A DNA stretch of 64,000 nucleotides from Polytrichum commune (lineage: Eukaryota; Streptophyta; Polytrichopsida; Polytrichales; Polytrichaceae), in contig OX485806.1 of assembly GCA_950295325.1 (NCBI GenBank), positions 21,640,001 to 21,704,000 on the forward strand, in the 5' to 3' direction. This document shows, piece after piece, positions 391 to 61,657 of the stretch. The notes beneath the pieces were generated by a model that saw only the letters and a list, made by a program, of their open reading frames with translations, made no database searches and was not told the origin of the DNA. The position numbers and the translations under genes are program-made. The first letter of the stretch is position 1. Each line of letters opens with the position of its first letter.

Positions 391-570
391 ATGTGTTACC
401 ATTTGGAGTTATGTGTTGTGATAACTTTTTACCGAGAGTATCATTTTTTTACTCAAATAATTTAAGTAGTTAGTATGCACATTGAAAAATATGGCGCAAC
501 TTTGTTGGTGACAAATGATAATGTTGGTAAAAAGTTCTAGCAACATGTAACTCTAAATGGCAATCCACAC
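391..570. mobile_element. Foldback MITE (family F2), copy 1
   Basis: The left arm (about 391-438) and right arm (about 524-570) are inverted copies. Each carries the block CATTTGGAGTTA (right arm as its reverse complement), followed inward by a TAACTTTTTACC-like block. The same structure recurs at 27388-27560. There is no coding capacity. The superfamily is uncertain because no clear target duplication was found. Confidence 0.55.
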
Positions 571-710
571 TAGATTGAACAAAATAGTGTCCTTGGGATG
601 AACAACAAACATGGGAGGGGCGTGTATTTACCACACCGCCAATGGTAGGTGTCATGTATCAAATTCTAAGTGAGCTTCGGCCTCGGAATTCCCTCCTTTC
701 CCCTCCTATA

Positions 711-1258
711 AGATAGAGGGTTCACAAACCCATACTTTAAGCGATTTAGCATGTTTTTGGAGTCCATTTGGATTATTGGTATGCATGATTGGCTTAGCAA
801 ATTGGCTTCGACAAAGTTTAAAAGATAAAAATAAATAAAAATCACATCATATGAATATATATATATATAACGAAGTAACTTACCCCTAGCTTCCTAAATC
901 CATCCCAGACTCCCACTTTTTCCATTGCAAATAGCTCTCAAAACTGTCCCGGCACTCGCCCAAACCGCCCACACTAAAACCAACTTTCCACCCACTAAGA
1001 ATATTGACCTCTTAAAACTTTGCATGTGAGGTCTTAATGAATACATGTAAGTGACCCATATCCGATCCCATTTTTGCCCAAAACCAGCCCACAGTTTCCC
1101 AGAACCCACCCCGCTTTTCACCCACATCCGCCTCCGCTTTGCATTGAAGACATTCAGACGGTTTAAAGTGTGTTCCAAGTACGGGATATCAGAGACATTC
1201 AAAGGTGTTGCTTTTGGGCGGGGGTGTTGGATTTAGCACCCTCTCTACGTACCTACCT
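711..1258. mobile_element. DNA transposon with GGTAGAGGGTGC-type ends, degenerate copy
   Basis: The left end reads AGATAGAGGGTTCACAAACC. The right end, reverse complemented, contains a related GAGGGTGCTAAATCCAACAC block. Both ends are flanked by TA. The better preserved copy at 25568-26294 defines the family. The short open frames inside are overlapping and unlike any protein I recognise, so I do not call a gene. Confidence 0.4.
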
Positions 1259-1965
1259 TACATGCATGCATGAACACCCAAAATGGCCCTCACCGATCTT
1301 GGTTGTTGACTTAGGGCAAGAGTACTATAATCTTGAAGATGTGTATATTAAGAAGCAAATTAACTTAGCATTGTCAATATATCACTCGATCGCCACTTGC
1401 GGTGCAACACACACTCGCATTCAAAAAAATAGAATCTAGCTTGAAACCATTCCAAACGAACGATGCACAGATCGCGCATCATGACACGCTAGGCCCCACC
1501 ATGGTTCACCCGGGGTGAAAACTAGGTATATATTTAAGAAGTTCTAACTAGACCATGTTTCCTTGGTTAATTAGGGTGGTGGGGCCCATCTACGTCCCAA
1601 ATTGGGAGGGTGAATTAGGTTTCCCGGTTGCTTGGAAGAGTTTAATAAGTTACACACGAAAGTCAACATGGCGATCATATTTGGAGGATTCACTGCAACG
1701 TCTAATAATAGGTTTCCAAGCCATATCCTTTTGCATTCAAGTATAGTAAACGTTTGATCCATCTAATTTATGTGCAAACTAACTTTGAATCAGCATAATA
1801 AGTGCATCTGCTGCTTACTATTAAAGCATGCCGTGACCACTTGTGAAGACTGTTGGGATAATTTTACATTTTGATGTTGTAATTAAGCTCACCGTTCTCC
1901 ATCGCGACCCGAGCTTGTATTTGTGAATGGTCAACCATATCTTGCACTCCCAGGGGTGCTTTAAC
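1259..1965. other. Gene-free stretch
   Basis: I see no coding exon, RNA gene or recognisable element here. The reading frames present (for example 1555-1746) are short, overlap on both strands and lack motifs. Confidence 0.5.
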
Positions 1966-1981
1966 TTAGGGCCACTTCACA

Positions 1982-2833
1982 GCCCGGGTTAATTAGATCA
2001 CATCTTCATTTGGTTGGGCCCTGCCCCTCCCATGCATGCCTCCTTCATTGTCCGGTCAGCCTGCCTGCACTTGCGTGGGAACCTTTCCCCGTTGGGAATC
2101 AATGTGACAGTGTCCAGTCAAGAATACAGATATTCAAGTTGACATCACTTTCATTATTCCCAAGTTAATCGATGGAGTTCTTTCACATGTCCAAAGAAGC
2201 TGAGGGCCACTTCACACACGAGCCAAGAGCCGTGACCGTGAAATTGTGAGAGCCCAAAAGAAAGTGTCCAAGGGCTGTCCCAACACACCTCCAAAATCAT
2301 GTAGTGTGGTCATGGACCCTCAAGTGTAGTGTGAAGCCATATGTGACCGGGCCCTCAACCAAATGCTATTTCAATGTGTTTCTATTCATGTGGGTCCTCA
2401 CACATGATAAAATAGAATAAATCAACGGTTGTGAGTGTTCAGAGGTGCCATGGTCTCCCGGTTTTGTGTGAGGCCTACTTCCAAGAGGTGGTTTTTGAAA
2501 ATAATCCAAGTGACCATGAAACATGATCCATTCGATGCCATGTGGACTTTACGTCCATCTTGCATTTACGTACTCCGTCGGTCCCTCAAGCGTAGTGTGA
2601 AGCAAACTTGGACTGGCTCCACCTTTTCCACCAATGAGAGTGCTTGAATTGTAATGGTCACGGACTCTCAGTCTCATGTGTGAAGCCCTCAATGGTTTAA
2701 GTGATTGGGGATTGTCACATTGGTTCCCAACGGGGAAGAGTTCCCACGCAGGTGCAGGCAAAAATACCGGGCAATGAAGGAGGCGTGGGACGGGCGGGGC
2801 CCAACCGAATGTAGATGTGATCTAGCTCGGGGC
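1982..2833. mobile_element. Foldback MULE-like element B1 inserted in MITE A1
   Basis: The ends are inverted: the left starts GCCCGGGTTAATTAGATCAC and the right, reverse complemented, starts GCCCCGAGCTAGATCAC. Inverted similarity continues inward through the blocks CGGTTGGGCCC and TTGGGAATCAATGTGACA. It is flanked by the 9-bp duplication CACTTCACA (1973-1981 and 2834-2842), the length typical of Mutator-like elements. A second copy lies at 8693-9075. It is non-coding. It is itself interrupted by MITE A2. Confidence 0.75.
2204..2688. mobile_element. Tourist-like MITE A2 (long subfamily), nested in B1
   Basis: A 485-bp member of family A. It starts GGGCCACTTCACACACGAGC and ends in the inverted equivalent TCTCATGTGTGAAGCCC. 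It is the reverse-orientation relative of the 500-bp copy at 60607-61106, sharing internal blocks such as CCTCCAAAATCATGTAGTG. The flanking triplets are TGA and TCA, so the TTA-type duplication has decayed. The frame at 2435-2647 is a chance frame. Confidence 0.75.
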
Positions 2834-3153
2834 CACTTCACACATGAGACTGAAAGCCCATCACCATTGCATTCTAAGACCTCTCAATGGTCAAAAAGAC
2901 CAAGACTATCCCAATTCACTTCACTCTAGAAGGTTAAGGCCCCAATAAAATCATCATGGATGAAAAGTCTATATGGAATCCTATGTGGCATACTATAAAT
3001 AATATTTCATTGTATGCTACAATTTGCGGCACACCCGCCTCCAAGAGGTATGCCTCACAACAAACATGTCAATGGTATGGCTTTTGGAAGAGAATCCGGG
3101 ACCTTACAATTACATGGTCACAACCCTTGGCTCGTGTGTGAAGTGACCCTTAC

Positions 3154-3560
3154 AACAAGGTATGCAAATGTTATTTGGTTAGTTTTCTTAATTCGACGTC
3201 TATATTTGATTGGTGAGTGGTTAGGTGAGGATCAAAGAATAAACACTATAAAGTCACATTTGTAAAAGGAGATCGAATTACATTTTGACATTTTGTTTAC
3301 TACTCCACATTCAAGAGTGAACATAATTGAGTGGACCTACATGTTTAGTCAACGAATCAATAAACATGTACTTCCAATATCCATGACTAAATCATGATAG
3401 GTCCAGTTTTCAGTCGAGTTTTATTGATGTTCCATCATAGACATGCTAATTCACACGAGTCTCATCATGTAAATTTAATTAGTTGAAGTTGGAGAACATG
3501 GAAAACAAACCAAATAACACCCACATACCTAACATCATGTCCCAATATCCAAGCCCTTCT
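3154..3560 (+). repeat. Dispersed repeat R2, copy 1
   Basis: This roughly 400-bp sequence recurs at about 55080-55460 (same strand) and 13260-13740 (opposite strand), with partial copies at 10790-11000, 31900-32140 and 44760-44960. Shared blocks include TCTATATTTGATTGGT, GAGGATCAAAGA, AGTTGGAGAACATG and AACACCCACATACCT. No terminal repeats or coding frame were recognised, so the element type is unknown. Confidence 0.7.
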
Positions 3561-4440
3561 CAATTCCCACTTTGCAAAATCCCATTTCAAGGTGAAAGTC
3601 CCCCAACTTCTTGAGCCCAATGTCTCAAAAATTTATTAAATTGTTGGGGGTTGATGTTTAGGATATAGGTTAGAGGCTAAATGTATTTGTAAGATTGGTA
3701 CAATTTTGAAATGATATGATAAAGATCATTTAGTGTTCCGATAATTACATAACGTTGTTGTCTTCCTTTATTATGTCCTTGACTACTACCACTATATATA
3801 TTGTTGAGTATGATTAATACCTATATGCATGATAATGTTAGTGTAAATGCGGTTGCCATAAAGTACAATACACACAAGAATAGAGACATTAAAAAACATT
3901 TTGAGAAAAATATGTTCCACGGGGAAATCGAACCATGGGTTTTTTTTTATCATGCCCATTGCAATGTGGAATTGCTTGCAAAATCACACCTTAGCACAAA
4001 CCAACCATCACCCACCACAAATTAGTCAATAGATGATTTTAACAATCTATCATTTATCCATGTTTGTCAAGCTAAGATATTTTTTGAATGTGATAAGGTG
4101 TAAAGAAAAAAATTATTTTTCACATGGTTTGTTCTATTAGGTTGCATATTTTTTAGTGTAGTATATTAAGTTATACACCATCAAAAAATGTACAAGATTA
4201 CTAACCATATGCAACTTATAACCTCCACAAATTTTACAAGTTGAAGCTTTGAAGACTCTTGCCATGAAAATTGGACATTGTTGGATCAAATCCCAATGTT
4301 GTGATAGAGTTACTTGGAAATCTCATATTCCAAAGTACAACAATAGATGTGACATAAAAAATGATCCCTTGCACTCCTCACTATAATCTTGAATGACAAG
4401 AAGGTTGATTTTCCATCCTCCATTTCATAGTTGTTTGATA
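3561..4440. other. Gene-free stretch
   Basis: AT-rich sequence without a supportable gene. The frame at 3801-4025 lacks motifs and starts within AT-rich DNA. Confidence 0.5.
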
Positions 4441-7240
4441 TTTGGGTTGTATTCAAGGCATTTTTGGTGATTGAGTTTGCCGTTTATTGGTCGTGGCAAA
4501 GTGTAAGTTCAATAAATTATGCAATGATAGTTGGGAAAGGGGGTGGCATTTTTGCTTTGTTTTGATTAGGCATAGTATGTATGGCTTGAGCTTAGATAAG
4601 CATGTGCATTTGCATGTTGTACATTCACATGTTATTAACATTGGGGTATTGTGTTGTCTTTGGATTATCATTCATTTATACCAGTATTTATAAGGATAAA
4701 ACTTGTAGTACTAAAGTGGGATAAAAAGGTAGAGGCGATTCCATGGACCGCTTTATTTTGTTGGTTGATTCATAGCCATTTGATAAATCTATGTGTGCAA
4801 TGGACTAGGAGGCAATGCCATGTGTCAATGGCGTTTTGTGCACATCGTATGCAATTATTGTAGGGAGTTGGGGATGGAAGGTGCATTTTTGTAGGTTGTT
4901 TGTAATGTGTGCATTTAAATTATAAGATTTGTGTGACTTATTTATCTATAATCCATGTTGTTTTCCATAAGAGATTGGAGAGATTTATCTCCATTTGTGG
5001 ATTTGTAAACCACTCCATGTGAATTTGGTTGTTATGTATTTGATGAGTCGTGTCATTTTGTGTTTCGCTATTATGTTGGAATTATACATGGAGCCTTCGT
5101 GCACCCTTGCAGTGGGAAAGCTTGCAAGCTAGTAGTGTGTAGTGAGTGATATTTGTATGAAGGAGACAATTTCGTCCTTGGGGTTGGAGCTAGCTCCGTG
5201 TTTTGCAAGTCTCTATGCTTCATCGTTTTTGAGAATTTATTAATGTGCTTTCATTCTTTGTTTGTGGATTTCATGTTCCAAGTTTTTGTTGAAGTGCTTA
5301 GTAGTTATGGTTAAGGAATTTGACAGGGTGGTTGTGTTGGGAGGTGGGGTTTTATTATTATTTATTTATTTACTTATGTAGTTTTGGATAAGGTATACAT
5401 TGTTGAGGTTGTATTTTAAAACGTATACTTTGTTTGGTAGGCTTTTTGTGTGTTTTGGGCCTAGTAGTAGGGCATTAAGTTTTCTTGTGTGGTATTTGGG
5501 TACCATGATAGTATTGTTGCTGATGCAATGTGTTTTCCATGTACTCCCAATCCAACTTTGTTGTTGTAACCTTCTTAGGCAATGGGGCAATGGAGCCGCG
5601 GGGAAGGGGGGAAGCCATTGGTGAAGTAACATTGGTTGGACAAAATTGGATTGGGTTAACGTTATCTTTAAAGTCTTTAAAACAAGTATGTTTTGGTAGG
5701 GAGTTTGGCATACTCTTGTTATTTGATAGTATTTGAGTGTTCAATTGGTGTCAGAACCCCCAATTTTGGTGGATTAAAGGGGAGGCTTTTGACTTCAGCC
5801 AAAGACATATATATATATATATGAACTCCTTATCTAAATTTTGGGAGCACCATTTTAGATGCCTCCAAAGGTTTACCATTAAATTTGTGCTATAGAGTTG
5901 TATTTTGGTGAAAGTAAAATGCCTCCCTTTCATTTCACTAAACTTAGGGGTTCCGACACTATTTGAACACTCCTCAAACAAAATAAAATGTCAAAAGTGG
6001 GCCAAAACTCCCTGCTAAACCATGAGTATTTGAAAGACTTTAAGAATAATTATATCGAGTGTGAAAAATTCCCTAGGGACTTTCTTGGGAGATATGGTGT
6101 TTTAGTGGTAGGGAAGGGTTGGCTTGGAGTTTATGTGTTTGGAGGATCTTTTCTTGTAGTTTTGTGAACAATTTGTGGTTAGTACAATGGGTATTTTATG
6201 GTATATGCATGTAATTGAGGTGAGGGAGGGTTCTTTGTATTCATAATAATGGGGAAAATTTGGCGCCATTTGGTATTCTATTGTGTTAGGGGGGGGGGGC
6301 AGTAGGCGGTCTAGATAATCATCAAGAGGGTTCTTTTGGTTGGACTAGTTTATTTGATGTATGACAAGGATTATAGAGGGTTGTAGATAGTCTTAAGTTG
6401 TTGGTCTAGCCCAATGTATTGCTTTGAGTGTGGGATGGTGGTATGTGAGGTGGGTGTAGTTGTTGCCTCTCCACTTGGTGGATATGACTGACCTTAATAA
6501 GCCAAAATTTTGTCACGTTGGTATGGTAAATGGTAGCATTGTACTTTGGGCGGGGTTTTGAAGTTAGAGGAGAAGTATGTGTGGATTATGTTAAATTTGT
6601 CTATTAGAGTTTGTGATAGTTGGGTGCATCATTTAGAGTTGATTTGTTGGGTCAAATTGCTTAGATTTTCTCTTGGGAATGGTTGATGTTGATCTTTCTA
6701 TAAGTTGTAGGGTTATTGACGGCGAAGTCTTGGGGAGGGGGTTGGAGAAGGCTTTATGTGTTGGTAGTTATGGACTGATGGTATCTTTCCCATGGCCATG
6801 TTAGTCATTTTGATAGGATAGAGGTGATGTAAGCTCCCTTGCAATTGTATGGGAATTTGTATGGCCAGTTTGTTATCTTAGTATGTATTGTTAGAATCAC
6901 GTTCTTGCATGTGGAGTGTGAGGTATGGGATGTGAAGGGTCGGGCTTATATGCCTAAGACATAGAGATTATGGGTATGCATGCGTGCTTTGTGTAAAATT
7001 GTATAGTTTTCATGGTGTCAATTGTCTAGGAAGGTAGGAGGGTAGCATTATATTGAAGTCATATGTGATGTTGTCATGATCAACGATTGCAATTAGTGGA
7101 GCTCATTTGGTGCAAATTTGGATGATGTGTACCTCTTGTTTACCCACTTACATACTTTTTACACCGGAAGGGTTGGGTTTTTGATTGGACTCCGCATTCA
7201 TCACATTTGAAGATGGTTTTGTGGTCGATCTTTTTCCAAG
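4440..7240. other. GT-rich gene-free stretch, possible old retroelement relic on the minus strand
   Basis: The plus strand is strikingly T+G-rich for 2.8 kb, unlike its neighbours. The same skew is seen over the LINE remnant at 28540-29630. Reverse-strand translation is broken by many stops but gives stretches that look protein-like (for example around 6900-7100). I could not find a reverse transcriptase motif, so assignment to a LINE is only a suggestion. A small MITE interrupts it at 5732-5975. Confidence 0.3.
5732..5975. mobile_element. Small foldback MITE with GTGTCAGAACCCC ends
   Basis: The left end contains GTGTTCAATTGGTGTCAG and then AACCCCCAA. The reverse complement of the right end contains GTGTTCAAATAGTGTCGG and then AACCCCTAA. 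The inverted similarity spans about 50 bp per side, through an AAAGGGRGGC block. A (TA)8 run lies in the middle (about 5806-5821). It has no coding capacity. Superfamily unassigned. Confidence 0.6.
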
Positions 7241-8692: not shown

Positions 8693-9075
8693 GCCCCCCC
8701 CCCCCCGCGGCTAAATCACATTTGTGTTCGGTTGGGCTCCGCCCCTCCTTCACTGCCTGGTCTTCATGCCCGCACTGCGTGGGAACTCTTCCCCGTTGGG
8801 AACCAATGTGACAATACCCGGTCAAAATTAAAAAATATTCAAGTTGACATCACTTTCATTATTCCAAGTTAATTGACGGAGTTCCTTCACTTGTCAAAGG
8901 AGACTAATGAAAGTGATGTCAACTTGAATATTTGTAATTTTGACCAGGTATTGTCACATTGGTTCCCAATGAGGAAGAGTTCCCACGTAGATGGGGGCAG
9001 GAAGACCGGGTAACGAAGGAGGCGTGGGAGGGGCAGGAGGGGCAGGACCTAGCCGAACACAATTGTGATTTAGTT
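8693..9075. mobile_element. Foldback MULE-like element B2
   Basis: Two arms of about 170 bp (8707-8875 and about 8905-9075) are inverted copies with a short loop, so a transcript would fold into one long hairpin. Shared blocks are GGCTAAATCAC, TTGGGAACCAATGTGACA and TCAAGTTGACATCACTTTCA. It is flanked by TGTCAATTG on both sides (8682-8690 and just after the terminal G run), a 9-bp duplication. The left terminus has expanded to 13 C. Same family as 1982-2833. Confidence 0.75.
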
Positions 9076-13259: not shown

Positions 13260-13740
13260 ATCTCTTAAGAAAAACTTACCATAAGGTATGTGGGTGTTAT
13301 TGGGCTCCTTTTCATGTTCTCCAACTTCTACTAATTAAATTTACACAACTAAACTCATGTTGCATTAGCACATTGGTGATGAAATATATGCAAAATCCAG
13401 ATTGAAAATTGGACTTCCCTTGCTTTAGTTATGGTTATCAAGACTGCATGTTTGTTGAATTCTAGACTTGATACATAGGTCCTCTTAAATATGTTTATTA
13501 TCGAGTGTAGAGAAGTTATTAATATTTGAAAACGAAGTCTAATCTCTTTTAAACACGTGTCTTTATGATGTTTGCTCTTTGATCCTCACTAAACCGCACA
13601 TCAATCAAATATAGGGGTCCAATTAAGAAAAAATTCTCATAACACAAGCATACCGTAGGGCTTGTGAAATTCTATCCAAACAATCACTTGGTATACGGTC
13701 ATACTTTTTTAATGTAATTAAGTCAACAAATAGGATTTTT
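13260..13740 (-). repeat. Dispersed repeat R2, reverse copy
   Basis: The reverse complement aligns over about 480 bp with 3154-3560 and 55080-55460. Blocks in order are CCCCTATATTTGATTG, GAGGATCAAAGAGCAAACATC, AGAAGTTGGAGAACATG and AACACCCACATACCT. No frame of note. Confidence 0.75.
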
Positions 13741-13812
13741 CATTTTTTTCATTTTGGGAAACAATCGAAGTGAATTCATAAAACCAAAGAGGACCCACAT
13801 CACCTAGTCTAG

Positions 13813-14734
13813 TGTGAGCCCAAAATGGTGCCCACATGTGTTATTAACCCTTTGAAGCCATTAGGAGTTACATTTTGATGTTTTATGATTATTCTCAAAA
13901 ATATAAAAAGAGTGAGGCTTGGTGTGAAGTTATGTTTAGGCCTTAGGCTTATGTGGTGTAGTTAATTAGAAGCTTAGCGGCATGAAGGAAGTTCTTTGGT
14001 TAGGTGAGTGTAGCATGTGGTGAACCAAGGGGAGCTCCTTGAGTTTAAATATTTGAATTGGGATCCATCTTGTTGGTTTAGGAGTTGAAGGCTTAGCGGA
14101 TAGGATAAGAGCATACGAGGTAGGTGAGGATCGAGGGGCTTACTTGGCGGATAGGATAAGAGCCTATGAAGTAGGAGAGGATCGAGGGGCTTATCTTGAG
14201 CTTTGAGGGGTGCTCACCCCTTCCCTCCCCCTATATATTCCTCTCTCTCACCTTCTTCACTCACTTGTGTTTCTATTCACTCTCTCTTCCTTCGCGCTCT
14301 TCCATCTTGCACGTGTGTGTGGGCACATGAGCATGTTGTATTGAGAGGGGAGTGTGGGTAAAGGGGAGAGGTTCATACAAGGCCTCCTTATCCTCTCCCT
14401 TCCCCTCTCCTTCTCTCTCTCTCTCCCTCTTGTTGTTCCTCTCATAGAATTGAATGTTAGAGTTAGAGTTGTGTGGGAATTAGTAGAAGGTTAGTGGAAT
14501 TAGTAGAATTCATAGAGACTTGTAGGGACTTGAAGAGACTTGTAGAGACTTGAAGGCCAATGCTCTACCTATTCAAGAGACTAGCATTAATAAAACATCA
14601 TGATTTCAAGTGAGTTGGGAGCTTGTTGAGATGGAAGTACATTCCATGTTACCACGAGCTTTGGTATGACACATGTGATTCTTAAAACCATCACCCGGAC
14701 TAGGACGCTTAAGGGTGGTGGGTTTGGCCTCACA
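13813..14734 (+). mobile_element. LTR1, left copy (LTR retrotransposon)
   Basis: A 922-bp LTR starting TGTGAGCCC and ending CCTCACA, the usual TG..CA. It carries a TATA-like CTATATATTC at about 14231 and an AATAAA signal at 14589-14594. Two 51-bp spaced copies of a GCGGATAGGATAAGAG block (14096 and 14147) form a tandem repeat upstream of the TATA, possibly an enhancer. The primer-binding site follows at once. It matches the right LTR (17074-17995) in inverted orientation with only about two mismatches seen. Confidence 0.9.
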
Positions 14735-14738
14735 TAAA

Positions 14739-14756
14739 TGGTGCGTCCGCTGGGAG
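14739..14756 (+). other. Retrotransposon primer-binding site
   Basis: TGGTGCGTCCGCTGGGAG lies 4 bp after the LTR end and begins with TGG, the complement of a tRNA CCA end. The same sequence occurs reversed at 17052-17069. I do not assign the tRNA. Confidence 0.75.
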
Positions 14757-15575
14757 TTAAGCGGGAAGTAGACACCAGACTTGGAGGCAATTAAGAAGAC
14801 TTGGAGGCACAAACTTGAGAGAGGGGAAGGAGCATTTGACACGTGGTAAGTGTTTACTCTTAAATTTTTTTTTGAATTATTTAGATTAGTTGCATTTCGA
14901 TTATTTCTTTGGGATGGATTGCATTGTGATTTATACAATTTCATTTTGAGGAAAGAACGCGGCAAAGGTATGTCCGCATCCTTTTTGGGTATTTGCTAAG
15001 GACATAAAAGGAATTTACGATCGATTAGGTCACTAAGACTTTAGAGGAATAATTAATTTAAGGAAAATTAGACTTTGACACTCATCCCGGGGTGAGTCTC
15101 CAAGTCTTGGGACTTGAGAGTTGGTGCTATAGATTAGAATTGTTAGTTAGAAATTATGATTGTGATGTCACATTGAGTCACGGTCGAGGGGAGTGCTAAC
15201 TTACAGGGGGAAGCGATTGCTTAAGATACGACGACTTCTTCAAAGTAAAATTTTAATTAATTAATTAATGATTTTAGTACTCGTCTTTGTCGTTATCCGT
15301 TGTAGAGGGTAATTCCCTAGTCATAGCATTGTGTTGAAGACAAGAGGGTGATGCCTCGGTCTTTAATGTGGTGTATGACGAAGGTCAGCCCCTCACTCTC
15401 GGTATTGTGGTAAGTGTCAATTTGAGGAATGACACGGAGGTGATTCTCCGGCTTGACTAAGAATTGACATGAACATGCCTATGCCATGTTTGGGATTTTT
15501 CATCTAAGTGGGCTTGCAGGTTCTCTTCCTCACATCCTCAAATTTTAATTCACACAAAGAAAAATGATAATATTA

Positions 15576-16443
15576 ATGAGTGAAGGTAGTGAAGAATATG
15601 ATTGGTCAAGTGAGGGTTGATCGAATCTTTGGGGAATGCAAGGTAAGACTCGATCCCAAAAACCAAGCTTGACATTAGGATTAGAAAGATCTAGACGTAG
15701 GAGGACATCATCTAGGATTAGTGATGTTGTAGAAGAAGTTGATGTTAGAATATAAAATTGTTTGAATGTCGAGCCTAGTATTAGATCATTGTTAGATACA
15801 TTAGAATCGGAGGCTCAACTTGAAAAAGAGGCAACTCCTTCCAAGTTGAGTGGTGAGACTTCATCGGAAAATTGTATACTTAGGAAAGAGAATCTGATAA
15901 ACGTTGATAGGGGGTTACAAGGGAGCGCACCGGTTACCATGGATCCGGATCAAGGGATGGATCCACCACCCATACCGCCTATGCCACCCATTGATCCATT
16001 GGTTAGGCCGAGAGGCTTACCAATCGTGATTCCACAAAACTTACAAGCGGTGGACATGCCTTCCCACCTCCCTAAGTTTTATGGAACTAAGGATGAAGAA
16101 CTAAGTTTTATGGAACTAAGGATGGAGATTGTGGAGAAGGGAAGATGAATTGATACCTCAATTCATTCCTATTCGACCTAGGCTGGTCATGGGAGAACCG
16201 GTCAAGTATGAGAGTCAAGTTCCTTATGCTATGGTCGAGACGGGTCCATGTCCTTTAGCGGTTAGAGAACCGGCGCCACTTCTAGCATTACCGGCCCCTA
16301 GAGCGGATCCTCACCTTGAGGAAGTGAAGAGAAGGTTGGATGCTAGTCAATTGGGATTTCAAGAGGCGATGATCAAGCATGCCTCATACACAAGGGTTTG
16401 CTCATCTTTGTTTCTATACCAATCCGCCGGCACATTGGGATAA
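15576..16443 (+). pseudogene. Decayed gag-like gene of the LTR1 retrotransposon
   Basis: A reading frame beginning with ATG at 15576 continues to 16148 with only two stops, at 15618-15620 and 15753-15755. A second frame (16129-16443) carries on after an apparent shift. The protein has a proline-rich stretch and the motif LPKFYGTKDE, typical of the start of the plant retrotransposon Gag domain. Just after this motif a 29-bp tandem duplication (16072-16124) disrupts the frame, and the rest of Gag is missing. No protease, reverse transcriptase or integrase motif is present. It cannot make a working polyprotein. Confidence 0.7.
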
Positions 16444-16860
16444 TCCTTGATGTCGTGACCGACAACCATCTCTGTAGACGTAGTCCTGAAATGCAAAGGT
16501 TCCTCTAACTTAGAAGCCTCCAAGATAGCCTCCTCCTATTGAATCCCATCCACGTGTATTAGATTAACATCACTATCATCCACACTATCTACCCAAGGCG
16601 TCAAATACCCTAAGATCCACTCCTCTTCGGTGAGCACCTCACATGGCTCCAACAACGAACAATCCTCGCCACTAGAACTGAGCCTCTCATCACTCCAACA
16701 TGGATGGTGAGATGTTGCCAATATATCGAACTCCGACTCGGGATATTCCCTTAACCATTGTGCATACTCCCCATAATCCCCATGATGGTAGAACCTAAGA
16801 CCTAAACATCCCGAACCCAAATCCATGATATTGTTTTGACTTTCGGGATGAACTACCTTC
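16390..16860 (-). pseudogene. Retroelement internal fragment, minus strand
   Basis: Read leftward from the right-hand leader, an acidic open frame runs from about 16860 to a stop at 16536-16538. It includes motifs such as FYHHGDYGEYAQWL and EEEWILGYLTPWVD. After the stop the same strand gives another protein-like stretch to about 16390. It seems to be part of the element that carries the right LTR, placed directly after the leader, so intervening sequence has been lost. I do not recognise the domain. The boundary with the plus-strand gag fragment is near 16385. Confidence 0.45.
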
Positions 16861-17073
16861 AAAATGAAATTGTATAAATCACAATGCAATCCATCCCAAA
16901 GAAATAATCGAAATGCAACTAATCTAAATAATTCAAAAAAAAATTTAAGAGTAAACACTTACCACGTGTCAAATGCTCCTTCCCCTCTCTCAAGTTTGTG
17001 CCTCCAAGTCTTCTTAATTGCCTCCAAGTCTGGTGTCTACTTCCCGCTTAACTCCCAGCGGACGCACCATTTA
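16859..17073 (-). mobile_element. Leader and primer-binding site of the right-hand LTR1 element
   Basis: This is the inverted duplicate of 14735-14949. It contains the primer-binding site at 17052-17069 and ends where the two arms diverge (14949/14950 against 16859/16858). Frames here on either strand are mirror copies and not genes. Confidence 0.85.
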
Positions 17074-17995
17074 TGTGAGGCCAAACCCACCACCCTTAAG
17101 CGTCCTAGTCCGGGTGATGGTTTTAAGAATCACATGTGTCATACCAAAGCTCGTGGTAACATGGAATGTACTTCCATCTCAACAAGCTCCCAACTCACTT
17201 GAAATCATGATGTTTTATTAATGCTAGTCTCTTGAATAGGTAGAGCATTGGCCTTCAAGTCTCTACAAGTCTCTTCAAGTCCCTACAAGTCTCTATGAAT
17301 TCTACTAATTCCACTAACCTTCTACTAATTCCCACACAACTCTAACTCTAACATTCAATTCCATGAGAGGAACAACAAGAGGGAGAGAGAGAGAGAAGGA
17401 GAGGGGAAGGGAGAGGATAAGGAGGCCTTGTATGAACCTCTCCCCTTTACCCACACTCCCCTCTCAATACAACATGCTCATGTGCCCACACACACGTGCA
17501 AGATGGAAGAGCGCGAAGGAAGAGAGAGTGAATAGAAACACAAGTGAGTGAAGAAGGTGAGAGAGAGGAATATATAGGGGGAGGGAAGGGGTGAGCACCC
17601 CTCAAAGCTCAAGATAAGCCCCTCGATCCTCTCCTACTTCATAGGCTCTTATCCTATCCGCCAAGTAAGCCCCTCGATCCTCACCTACCTCGTATGCTCT
17701 TATCCTATCCGCTAAGCCTTCAACTCCTAAACCAACAAGATGGATCCCAATTCAAATATTTAAACTCAAGGAGCTCCCCTTGGTTCACCACATGCTACAC
17801 TCACCTAACCAAAGAACTTCCTTCATGCCGCTAAGCTTCTAATTAACTACACCACATAAGCCTAAGGCCTAAACATAACTTCACACCAAGCCTCACTCTT
17901 TTTATATTTTTGAGAATAATCATAAAACATCAAAATGTAACTCCTAATGGTTTCAAAGGGTTAATAACACATGTGGGCACCATTTTGGGCTCACA
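17074..17995 (-). mobile_element. LTR1, right copy, inverted
   Basis: 922 bp, the same length as the left LTR, without indels. The sequence differs at only two positions noticed (near 13857/17951 and 14446/17363). Its primer-binding site lies on its inner side, so it is also a 5' LTR. Its right flank (ATGCA) does not match the left flank of the other LTR (TCTAG), so the two LTRs do not bound one simple insertion. Confidence 0.9.
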
Positions 17996-18024
17996 ATGCA
18001 CCCAACAGGGCTCCGCACCAACAC

Positions 18025-19055
18025 TGAATAGAGGTGTGATTAAGCACCGAACAATTTATCTTCCTCTCAACAGCATTGTCGGATCTAGGCTCGCCTCTTC
18101 CTAGCTGATCTCAGCTCATCAGTAAGTCAATGCCACAAATCGCAATACCTCATTCTCCTGTTAGCGATTTCCAACTCCCACTCCTTTGTTAATGGCTTCA
18201 AGCAGGCAACATGCCTCAATTCCAGTGTCAACTAGACTCCGTTCCAAACCGCAACCTTGAATATTCACCTTCCACCCAGGTTGTCGCATTTCCCCGCTTC
18301 ATTGAATCCGTTTTCCGCGTTTTACTTCAGTCCAGTTGCGATTTCCTTTCCCCTTTGCCAGATGCTCACCCGTGGCAAATTCCAACCTTCCCCGAAAGCA
18401 GCTTGGACTTGGCCAAGTGATTGACGGCAACCACACCTCACATGCGCCGAATGTAGCTCTAAGAAAATGGCAGCTGGATGAGTTCAGTGCCTCGCCGAAA
18501 ATGCCCAACTCAAGCCCTCAGTCCCTTACAGTTCCCTCTACCACCAGCGTGTACTCTGTTGACTCCAGCAGACCTCTAGCCTACAAAGGCACTTTGAAAA
18601 TCTTACAATTTGGCAGGGCTTCGCGCTTGCCGCCACTGCTCCCAGCCGCCCTGTTCCGAGAGAGAGAGAGAATGAAAAACTTCTCCGCGAGCATTCCAGG
18701 GACCTCGCCTCCTGGGATCCAAAAATCTGGAGCCTTACCCACCGTTTGGGACAACGGCTTTCCCTCTGATAAGAACCTAGTAACTACCCAAAACAAACAC
18801 ACTAACACCTAAAATGAGCACTTAACTTTCACTCAACTCACTTCCCACCTAATGTCATCCCTAATCTAATTGAAATACTTAACTTCTTTGTGGGTTTTTT
18901 CCTTTTTCTTCAAAAACGAACATATAACTTGAGCTTACACCATAACTACATCAAAGCAACTTAAGTACAATCCAACTTTGATGCTAATACAACTACATGC
19001 TAATTCCAAAGTTTGAATGTCATTTTGCGTTAAATAAGAATGTGGGCACCAATTT
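18025..19055 (-). mobile_element. LTR2, a different LTR family, with its primer-binding site
   Basis: On the minus strand the sequence begins TGTGAGCCCAAATTGGTGCC at 19055. Only this terminal block of about 30 bp resembles LTR1. It ends near 18025 (or 18035). It is followed after a few bases by TGGTGCGGAGCCCTGTTGGG (18020-18001), a primer-binding-site-like sequence. LTR1 begins 5 bp later, so LTR1 cut off the rest of this element. The long frames at 18336-18812 lie within LTR sequence and are not genes. Confidence 0.6.
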
Positions 19056-32860: not shown

Positions 32861-32863
32861 CTA

Positions 32864-32966
32864 CTCCCTCCGTCCCAAAATGATTTTCCTACCCCTTGAA
32901 ATTTTTACAAACAATTTGGGACATAAAACTCCAGGGGGTAGAACAATCATTTTGGGATGGAGGGAG
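32864..32966. mobile_element. Stowaway MITE
   Basis: 103 bp with ends CTCCCTCCGTCCCAAAATGA and the inverted TTTTGGGATGGAGGGAG, flanked by TA on both sides (32862-32863 and 32967-32968). This is the classical Stowaway (Tc1/mariner) signature of plants. Confidence 0.95.
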
Positions 32967-32969
32967 TAT

Positions 32970-60264: not shown

Positions 60265-60603
60265 GGGCCACTTCACACACGAACTAAGGGCCGTGACCAT
60301 GTAATTGTCAAAGTCCTAGACTCTCATCCAACGGTGGTACCATGTCTTTAATTGACACGCTATGGCCACCTCCAAGATATAGGCCTGATGCAAATTCCGA
60401 CATACCGTGTTAGACCATGAAACATTGTTATAGGTGGTCATGTAGAAACCCATGTAGAGATTTCATCCATGATGATATCTTTGAACCCGTAGACTTTCAC
60501 CTTCTTGTGTGAAATGAACTTGGGCAGTCTCAGACTTCTCGACCAATGAGAGATCTTAGAATGCAATGGACATGGGCCTTCAGTCTCATATGTGAAGTGG
60601 GCC
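60265..60603. mobile_element. Tourist-like MITE A3
   Basis: 339 bp, TAA on both sides (60262-60264, 60604-60606), ends GGGCCACTTCACACACGA and TCTCATATGTGAAGTGGGCC. Same subfamily as 22596-22936. Confidence 0.88.
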
Positions 60604-60606
60604 TAA

Positions 60607-61106
60607 GGGCCACTTCACAGATGAGACTGAGAAGCCTTGACCATCACACTTCAAGCACTCTCATTGGTGGAAAAGGTGGAGCTGGTCCAACTCTGCTTCA
60701 CACTACGCTTGAGGGACCAATGTAGCATATGAATGCATGAATGTAAAGTCTACATGGATTCCTACATGGCATCAAATGGATCATGTTTCATGGTCACTTG
60801 GACTATTTTCAAAAACCACTTCTTGGATGTAGGCCTAACATAAAACATGATGACCATGGCACTCCGAAATCTCAAAACCATTGATTTATTATATTGTATC
60901 ACATTTGAAGACCGGCCTAAATAGAAATTCATTGAAATAATATATGGTCGAGGGCCCGATCACATGTGACTTTACACTACACTTGAGGGTCCGTGACCAC
61001 ACTACATGATTTTGGAGGTGTCGTTGGGACGGTGGCCTTTGGACACTTTCTTTTGGGCTCTCACAATCTCATGGTCACGGCTCTTGGCTCGTGTGTGAAG
61101 TGGGCC
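60607..61106. mobile_element. Tourist-like MITE A4, abutting A3
   Basis: 500 bp, opposite orientation to A3, sharing the TAA at 60604-60606 and with TAA at 61107-61109. Ends GGGCCACTTCACAGATGAGA and CTCGTGTGTGAAGTGGGCC. It is the reverse counterpart of the nested copy at 2204-2688. Confidence 0.88.
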
Positions 61107-61109
61107 TAA

Positions 61110-61657
61110 GTAATTTGGGTAGGTTCTAGGCAATGATAATTGTTGTCAATTGAGCTCCTTCTAAGTTTGGTTCATTGTGCGTAACTGCCACGCCAATATA
61201 ATATTCTCAGAGGTGGGAGAAGAAATTATATCCTATGTGAATATGTTAAGTACATAATGTTCCTTGTTTGAAGGGGTAACTTATTGTTTATGATTGTTTG
61301 GGACCCATTACACATTCCCTCCTATTATGTCCCCGAAAGCTGGTCATTTCAAAAATGCCGTTGCTATTAGTGGAAGTAACATCTCCCACATGGCATCCAC
61401 TAGAATAAGGTAACGTAAGATAGAATTACTGGACAATTAAAGTAATAGTAAGTCAACCGATTTACACAGTACTACTGCTTCTACCGAATCCAAAATTCAA
61501 TGAGTTTGGAATTGTTTTACCTTCCCTTCTATTTTCTACTAATGTAACTTAGAGGTGCCTCATTTTAAATGGACACTTCATTTTGAGTGGTGAATCGTTT
61601 GGGTGTGGATTTAAGGATCGCTTTACAGATAGACCAAGAGTTGTGACCATGAAAATC
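61110..61657. other. Gene-free stretch
   Basis: Nothing recognisable except a short R2-like block near 61552-61615 and a decayed family A end near 61622-61650 (ACCAAGAGTTGTGACCATGA). Confidence 0.4.

Follow-up and report, generated by a model that had tools for sequence, protein, structure and literature searches.

The locus examined here raises the question of how a retrotransposon copy came to consist of two 5′ halves in inverted orientation, and whether such a palindrome might have consequences for the family from which it derives. The window is a stretch of 64,000 nucleotides (C4:21640001-21704000) from a 407.8-Mb assembly of 64 contigs, nearly all of which is contained in seven contigs of 42-78 Mb. 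Base-by-base comparison of the inverted arms (13813-14949 and 16859-17995) reveals that each is 1137 nt long and that they differ by no indels and exactly two mismatches (13857/17951 and 14446/17362), in agreement with an earlier note on this DNA that had estimated about two. A spacer of 1909 nt separates the arms (Table 1). Each arm begins at the LTR terminus TGTGAG, and the outer ends of both arms are exact LTR termini. In both arms, 4 nt separate the 922-bp LTR from a PBS-like site (TGGTGCGTCCGCTGGGAG), beyond which lies a leader, and therefore both LTRs are 5′ LTRs, as the earlier note had also concluded. The 3′ halves, whose loss it had considered, are indeed gone. However, its description of a head-to-head arrangement with the 5′ ends facing each other must be reversed. 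The 5′ ends are the outer ends, both LTRs read inward, and the broken tails meet inside, so the arrangement is tail-to-tail (convergent).

Table 1. Features of the palindromic copy and its junctions, in window coordinates.
Feature	Position	Strand	Remarks
Left 5′ LTR	13813..14734	+	922 bp, TGTGAG...CTCACA; TATATA at 14232
Left PBS-like site and leader	14735..14949	+	PBS-like site from 14739; forms inner end of left arm
Left interior, leader/gag region	14950..16099	+	Colinear with relatives; closest 92% (among 40 candidates scored)
Junction J3	16100..16124	+	25 nt replacing 456 bp (L001, L003) or 396 bp (L002)
Left interior, later gag segment	16125..16379	+	255 bp; best matches 94-96% (40 candidates scored)
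Junction J1, inverting tail-to-tail join	16379..16381		Blunt or 1-2 ambiguous nt
Right interior, 476-bp pol piece	16381..16856	-	Inverted relative to left half
Junction J2	16856..16859		Second leader joined to pol piece; few nt ambiguous or filler
Right leader and PBS-like site	16859..17073	-	Identical to left
Right 5′ LTR	17074..17995	-	922 bp, 2 differences from left; TATATA at 17571 (+ strand coordinate)

The earlier account of the interior was incomplete. Alignment with 5.5-5.9 kb of 5′-side sequence from each of three relatives (L001, L002, and L003) reveals three separate junctions rather than a plain spacer. The spacer is also asymmetric, with 1430 bp on one side and 479 bp on the other. 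The filler at J3 is templated, in that a 24-nt unit at 16072-16095 recurs at 16101-16124. J2 represents a deletion of 3.6-4.0 kb against L001-L003, and in L003 coordinates the pol piece starts about 20 bp ahead of the end of the protease reading frame. A genome search across J2, in which 40 of 533 candidates were scored, revealed this join in no other copy, and a search across J1 and J3 found neither join elsewhere among the 40 scored of 594. One weak match (83%) spans the J3 filler, and it lacks the J3 deletion because its following piece lies 460 bases further away.

The gag, protease, and RT sequences of relatives fit the assignment of the arms to a family of Ty3/gypsy-type LTR retrotransposons. 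Relative L003 carries a gag domain (PF03732, E 6.6e-10, above the cut-off) and a weak match to a protease that falls slightly short of the cut-off (PF13650, E 1.4e-4), and its continuation, L044, carries RVT_1 (E 1.3e-11) and then RT_RNaseH_2 (E 0.0019, below the cut-off) downstream of the protease. The six scanned frames of L044 contain no integrase match, and thus the domain order is incomplete; this relative seems to have another element behind its RT. Among 16 scanned frames, which cover the family in part, there is no Pfam match to a tyrosine recombinase. Direct LTR pairs with matching 5-bp flanks are present in relatives E001 and E018. The Ty3/gypsy feature of TG...CA-type direct LTRs with a short target duplication of fixed length is therefore found in family members, but not in the palindrome copy.

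Genome searches with pieces of the family, in each of which 40 of 469 to 4026 candidates were scored, recovered many LTR relatives, the best full-length BLAST match being 95% (40 of 4026 candidates scored). Matches to the long left interior reached 92%, and those to the right interior piece reached 94% (40 candidates scored in each case). No copy equally close to the arms or interior of the palindrome was present among the 40 candidates scored per search, a sample in which the source copy could be missed. Shorter pieces match better elsewhere (98% over 321 bp and 99% over 184 bp), and the 255-bp gag piece has a 96% match elsewhere.

Distances among 24 LTRs, compared without gaps, indicate that the two arms are each other's closest relatives. 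The left and right LTRs differ at 2 of 922 positions (0.2%), versus 22 of 911 (2.4%) for L005, the nearest of the 22 other LTRs. Within-pair distances are 25/949 (2.6%) for E018 and 47/886 (5.3%) for E001. Both arm differences set a G against the A common to 22 of 22 other LTRs, with one such change in each arm. The arms share only 3 private substitutions, and the other 22 LTRs carry 6-23 each. Plant substitution rates are 6.5e-9 to 1.3e-8 per site per year. At these rates, the arms are about 0.07-0.14 million years old (interval about 0.01-0.5), and the LTR pairs of E001 and E018 are 1-4 million years old.

The mutation spectrum also sets the palindrome copy apart from its relatives. When singletons are counted across the LTR, leader, gag, and pol pieces, C>T and G>A changes account for 26 of 70 in the palindrome copy versus 218 of 329 pooled from seven relatives (Fisher p = 1.1e-5). 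Only the share is low; in absolute terms, the 26 such singletons of the palindrome copy fall within the span of the relatives (15-43, from differing lengths). We read the excess among relatives as methylation-type decay after insertion, from which the palindrome copy seems largely free in interior and arms alike, and we attribute its own surplus of other changes to divergence that the source lineage had accumulated before insertion. Both the absolute count of 26 and the long private branch of the right pol piece (18 private changes in 476 positions) speak against this reading. We dropped the idea that this private divergence reflects decay after insertion, as the singletons concerned are not rich in C>T changes (6 of 21). 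A lineage switch marked by gag affinity to E001 was also dropped, given that 17 of the 18 states common to E001 alone sit in a single tract (15503-15728). States common to E016 alone are located mostly at 14528-14551 (14 of 16).

The left (TCTAG) and right (ATGCA) outer flanks match at 0 of 5 positions, just as the earlier note had reported. Target duplications were read at 17 insertions for which both flanks were present (15 single LTRs and 2 pairs), and the flanks match at 5/5 positions in 12 of these insertions and at 4/5 in 3 of them. The flanks of L005 match at 2/5 positions and those of L015 at 1/5 (a 7-bp repeat out of register); L005, the nearest LTR to the arms, is likewise without a clean duplication. 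The missing 5-bp duplication argues against the simple integration of one palindromic cDNA, and the exact LTR termini on both sides point to ends made by integrase. The right flank (605 bp) contains two TCTAG motifs (18084 and 18575), and the left flank (601 bp) contains one ATGCA (13388), with about 0.6 occurrences expected for each.

In a genome search, the right flank (17996-18600, 605 bp) matched its own place only, whereas the last 153 bp of the left flank have three short partial matches of 40-70 bp. One of these, C1:3476250-3476315, retains 80% similarity until 13811, a single base short of the LTR, and in the other two the similarity is lost some 20 bp before that. The sequence beyond the C1 paralogue has no counterpart in the right flank, and elsewhere in the window it matches only chance-level stretches (11-26 bp). 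This one of the three paralogues offers a weak hint that the flanks were perhaps not original neighbors. Comparison of the joined flanks with the three left-flank matches, as a search for an empty site, gave no match across the boundary.

Given these observations, we favor the view that the locus is a dead composite Ty3/gypsy-type copy in which sister cDNAs of one source were fused at arrival in a single recent episode, and we give this explanation an even chance of being correct. Two cDNA copies of one source lineage would each have provided an intact integrase-type 5′ LTR end, and these would have become the outer ends of the palindrome. Their broken tails might have been joined by end joining or by template switching of reverse transcriptase, which would account for the inversion at J1, for the deletions at J2 and J3, and for the templated filler at J3. 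Both halves presumably arrived together. Consistent with this proposal, the arms are far closer to each other than to the nearest other LTR, and the independent arrival, within 4 kb, of two elements from a lineage not seen otherwise would be a strong coincidence. Furthermore, all three junctions are absent from the other copies scored, J3 carries a repeated 24-nt unit, the share of C>T and G>A singletons is low, both outer ends coincide exactly with the LTR terminus, and the left-flank paralogue weakly hints that the flanks were not neighbors.

However, a single concerted integration should have produced a 5-bp duplication, which the flanks do not exhibit, and therefore fusion at arrival needs an extra assumption. 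Perhaps the LTR ends joined different target positions, or the two sides of a break, and the intervening DNA was lost. Other observations also weigh against this explanation. The source copy may be among the candidates that were not scored, as short pieces match up to 98-99% elsewhere; the number of C>T and G>A singletons is within the range of the relatives; and the hint from the flanks comes from one of three short matches. Regardless of the route taken, the retrotransposon copy is real and young, and its rearranged form is of a known kind; it is mildly unusual because both halves come from one lineage and because there is no target duplication. No description of a plant LTR copy with the same structure was found in the accessible portions of the open-access literature searched.

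A possible, though more doubtful, origin is that of two convergent sister insertions, each with its own target duplication, followed by a later deletion at J1 that removed both 3′ halves and the intervening DNA, with smaller deletions creating J2 and J3. The exact LTR ends and unmatched flanks would then be explained directly, since each flank would be half of a different duplication, and the hint of non-neighboring flanks agrees with this route. Deletions with short filler are also common in plant LTR elements. However, a lineage otherwise absent among the scored matches must have landed twice nearby, and three deletions must have followed. Thus, fusion at arrival accounts for a lineage seen only here, and the two-insertion route accounts for the flanks without extra assumptions. 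The earlier note had offered either two truncated insertions or a replication or template-switch event, and both are possible in some form, but the chromosome-level version of the latter is disfavored, as discussed below.

It is unlikely that the arms are parts of two older inverted copies whose 1137 bp were recently homogenized by gene conversion. This proposal draws on the facts that arm homology stops exactly at J2, that the arms are 0.2% apart whereas the interior pieces differ from relatives by 4-10%, and that the private branch of the right pol piece is long. However, C>T and G>A changes do not dominate the interior singletons (20 of 57, versus 6 of 13 in the arms; p = 0.53), unlike those of the seven relatives. 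Overwriting of an old left arm from the right would be expected to shift its affinity at 14949, but divergence from five relatives is steady across this arm edge, with 10-14 mismatches per 150 bases in the block that includes the edge (14863-15012) versus 8-12 in the next block. Moreover, the number of private substitutions in the arms is below that of any of the 22 other LTRs. Because the singletons are less rich in C>T changes and because there is no lineage switch at the arm edge, a young common origin fits better, and gene conversion of old arms is disfavored by the distances, private substitutions, spectrum, and edge scan taken together.

Even less probable is an inverted duplication of one resident element at the level of the chromosome, caused by a template switch during replication. 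Such an event would create near-identical arms in one step and could leave templated filler like that at J3. However, copying would need to stop exactly at the LTR terminus, the right flank differs from the left and matched nothing in the genome search but itself, and no inverted copy of the left flank adjoins the right arm. This explanation is therefore disfavored, since both arms stop exactly at the LTR terminus and their flanks are different. Palindromes are a known artefact class, and fold-back reads yield symmetric ones, but the unequal sides of the spacer, the two arm differences, and the differing outer flanks make an assembly or sequencing fold-back the most improbable explanation of all.

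Whatever its origin, the palindrome makes a long-hairpin RNA and derived small RNAs, as envisaged in the earlier note, structurally possible, if the locus is transcribed. Both arms contain the LTR with its mirrored TATATA motif as well as the leader. RNA that begins near 14262, a presumed start, and reads through would comprise about 0.69 kb of LTR and leader sequence and its complement, with a loop of 1.9 kb. In each of the 22 other LTRs of the family, a median of 38% (range 22-49%) of LTR 24-mers are found exactly, and this overlap makes silencing in trans conceivable, as in maize Mu killer. Head-to-head or tail-to-tail insertions have been proposed (PMC11624286) as a route to LTR hairpins that start silencing. 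Still, it seems improbable that the locus naturally silences its own retrotransposon family through a hairpin, with both LTR promoters reading inward. If it did, a large proportion of the family LTRs would be matched by its small RNAs, and the locus would be a retrotransposon counterpart of Mu killer. The locus shows that a retrotransposon family can turn its own LTR and leader into a young inverted repeat, probably as a by-product of arrival or repair.

Among known systems, the locus resembles truncated or rearranged copies of plant Ty3/gypsy elements, with which it shares TG/CA-type LTR ends, a PBS-like site, and internal deletions (J2 and J3), along with the gag and protease sequences of its relatives and the 5-bp target duplications of its family. 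Unlike these copies, it consists of two 5′ halves of one lineage placed tail to tail, without a common target duplication and without a 3′ LTR. DIRS-type retrotransposons have inverted LTRs, and the palindrome likewise has inverted terminal repeats. However, its relatives E001 and E018 have direct LTR pairs, and the inverted state is found in the palindrome copy only.

Mu killer (Muk) of maize, as described in PMC2563033, is a MuDR derivative with a duplicated, inverted portion, and its 2.4-kb hairpin RNA silences the family. Both Muk and the palindrome are natural inverted duplications of part of a mobile element. However, Muk derives from a DNA transposon, whereas the palindrome is a retrotransposon whose 1.1-kb arms lie 1.9 kb apart and which is known from its sequence alone. 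According to PMC4516963, retrotransposon sequences can be captured at double-strand breaks, where several pieces can be joined, mostly without target duplications. The joins involve 1-5 nt of microhomology or short stretches whose origin is unknown. In that account, both ends of the captured pieces are truncated, whereas the outer LTR ends of the palindrome are exact, which points to ends made by integrase.

Within the LTR of the studied copy, the sequence upstream of the TATATA motif contains an internal 51-bp tandem duplication, which is mirrored in the opposite LTR. A dispersed repeat of about 230 bp lies in the left flank, and a first look across the genome returned 4545 candidates for it. 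The 40 of these that were scored are mostly 81-86% alike. Adjoining the left LTR itself is a 40-70-bp stretch with three short partial relatives elsewhere in the genome, one of which keeps its likeness until one base short of the LTR.

Other repeats occur farther away in the window, including a pair of inverted repeats of about 500 bp with 58 kb between them. There is also a self-complementary stretch of 279 bp that looks like a hairpin miniature element, and this stretch is akin to parts of two other segments. Four additional self-complementary stretches are possibly old hairpin elements.

Locations of repeats and LTR copies (window positions unless an assembly contig, C1 to C6, is named)
Feature	Location	Identity
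Dispersed repeat, left flank	13400-13631	
Stretch adjoining left LTR	13742-13811	
Its partial relatives	C5:6184395; C5:739348; C1:3476250	
LTR tandem duplication	14092-14193; mirrored 17615-17716	90%
Inverted repeat pair	2200-2685; 60613-61110	84%
279-bp self-complementary stretch	8744-9022	83%
Segments partly akin to it	2020-2197; 2707-2826	
Further self-complementary stretches	5662-6049; 370-590; 32862-32968; 60535-60675	69-77%
LTR copy L009	C6:31243461-31244924	
LTR copy L002	C4:54.81 Mb	
LTR copy L015	C4:54.75 Mb	

In L044, the continuation of a relative of the studied copy, a different open frame of 441 amino acids begins behind the reverse transcriptase frame at about base 960. This frame has no Pfam match and is probably part of another element nested in L044. 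Among the other genomic LTR copies of the family, L009 carries the flanking duplication CCTCA. Immediately next to it is a piece of another LTR of this family in inverted orientation, and the arrangement looks as though L009 had inserted into that piece. L002 and L015 have an identical 12-base left flank despite the 69 kb separating their LTRs, which suggests that they are products of segmental duplication.
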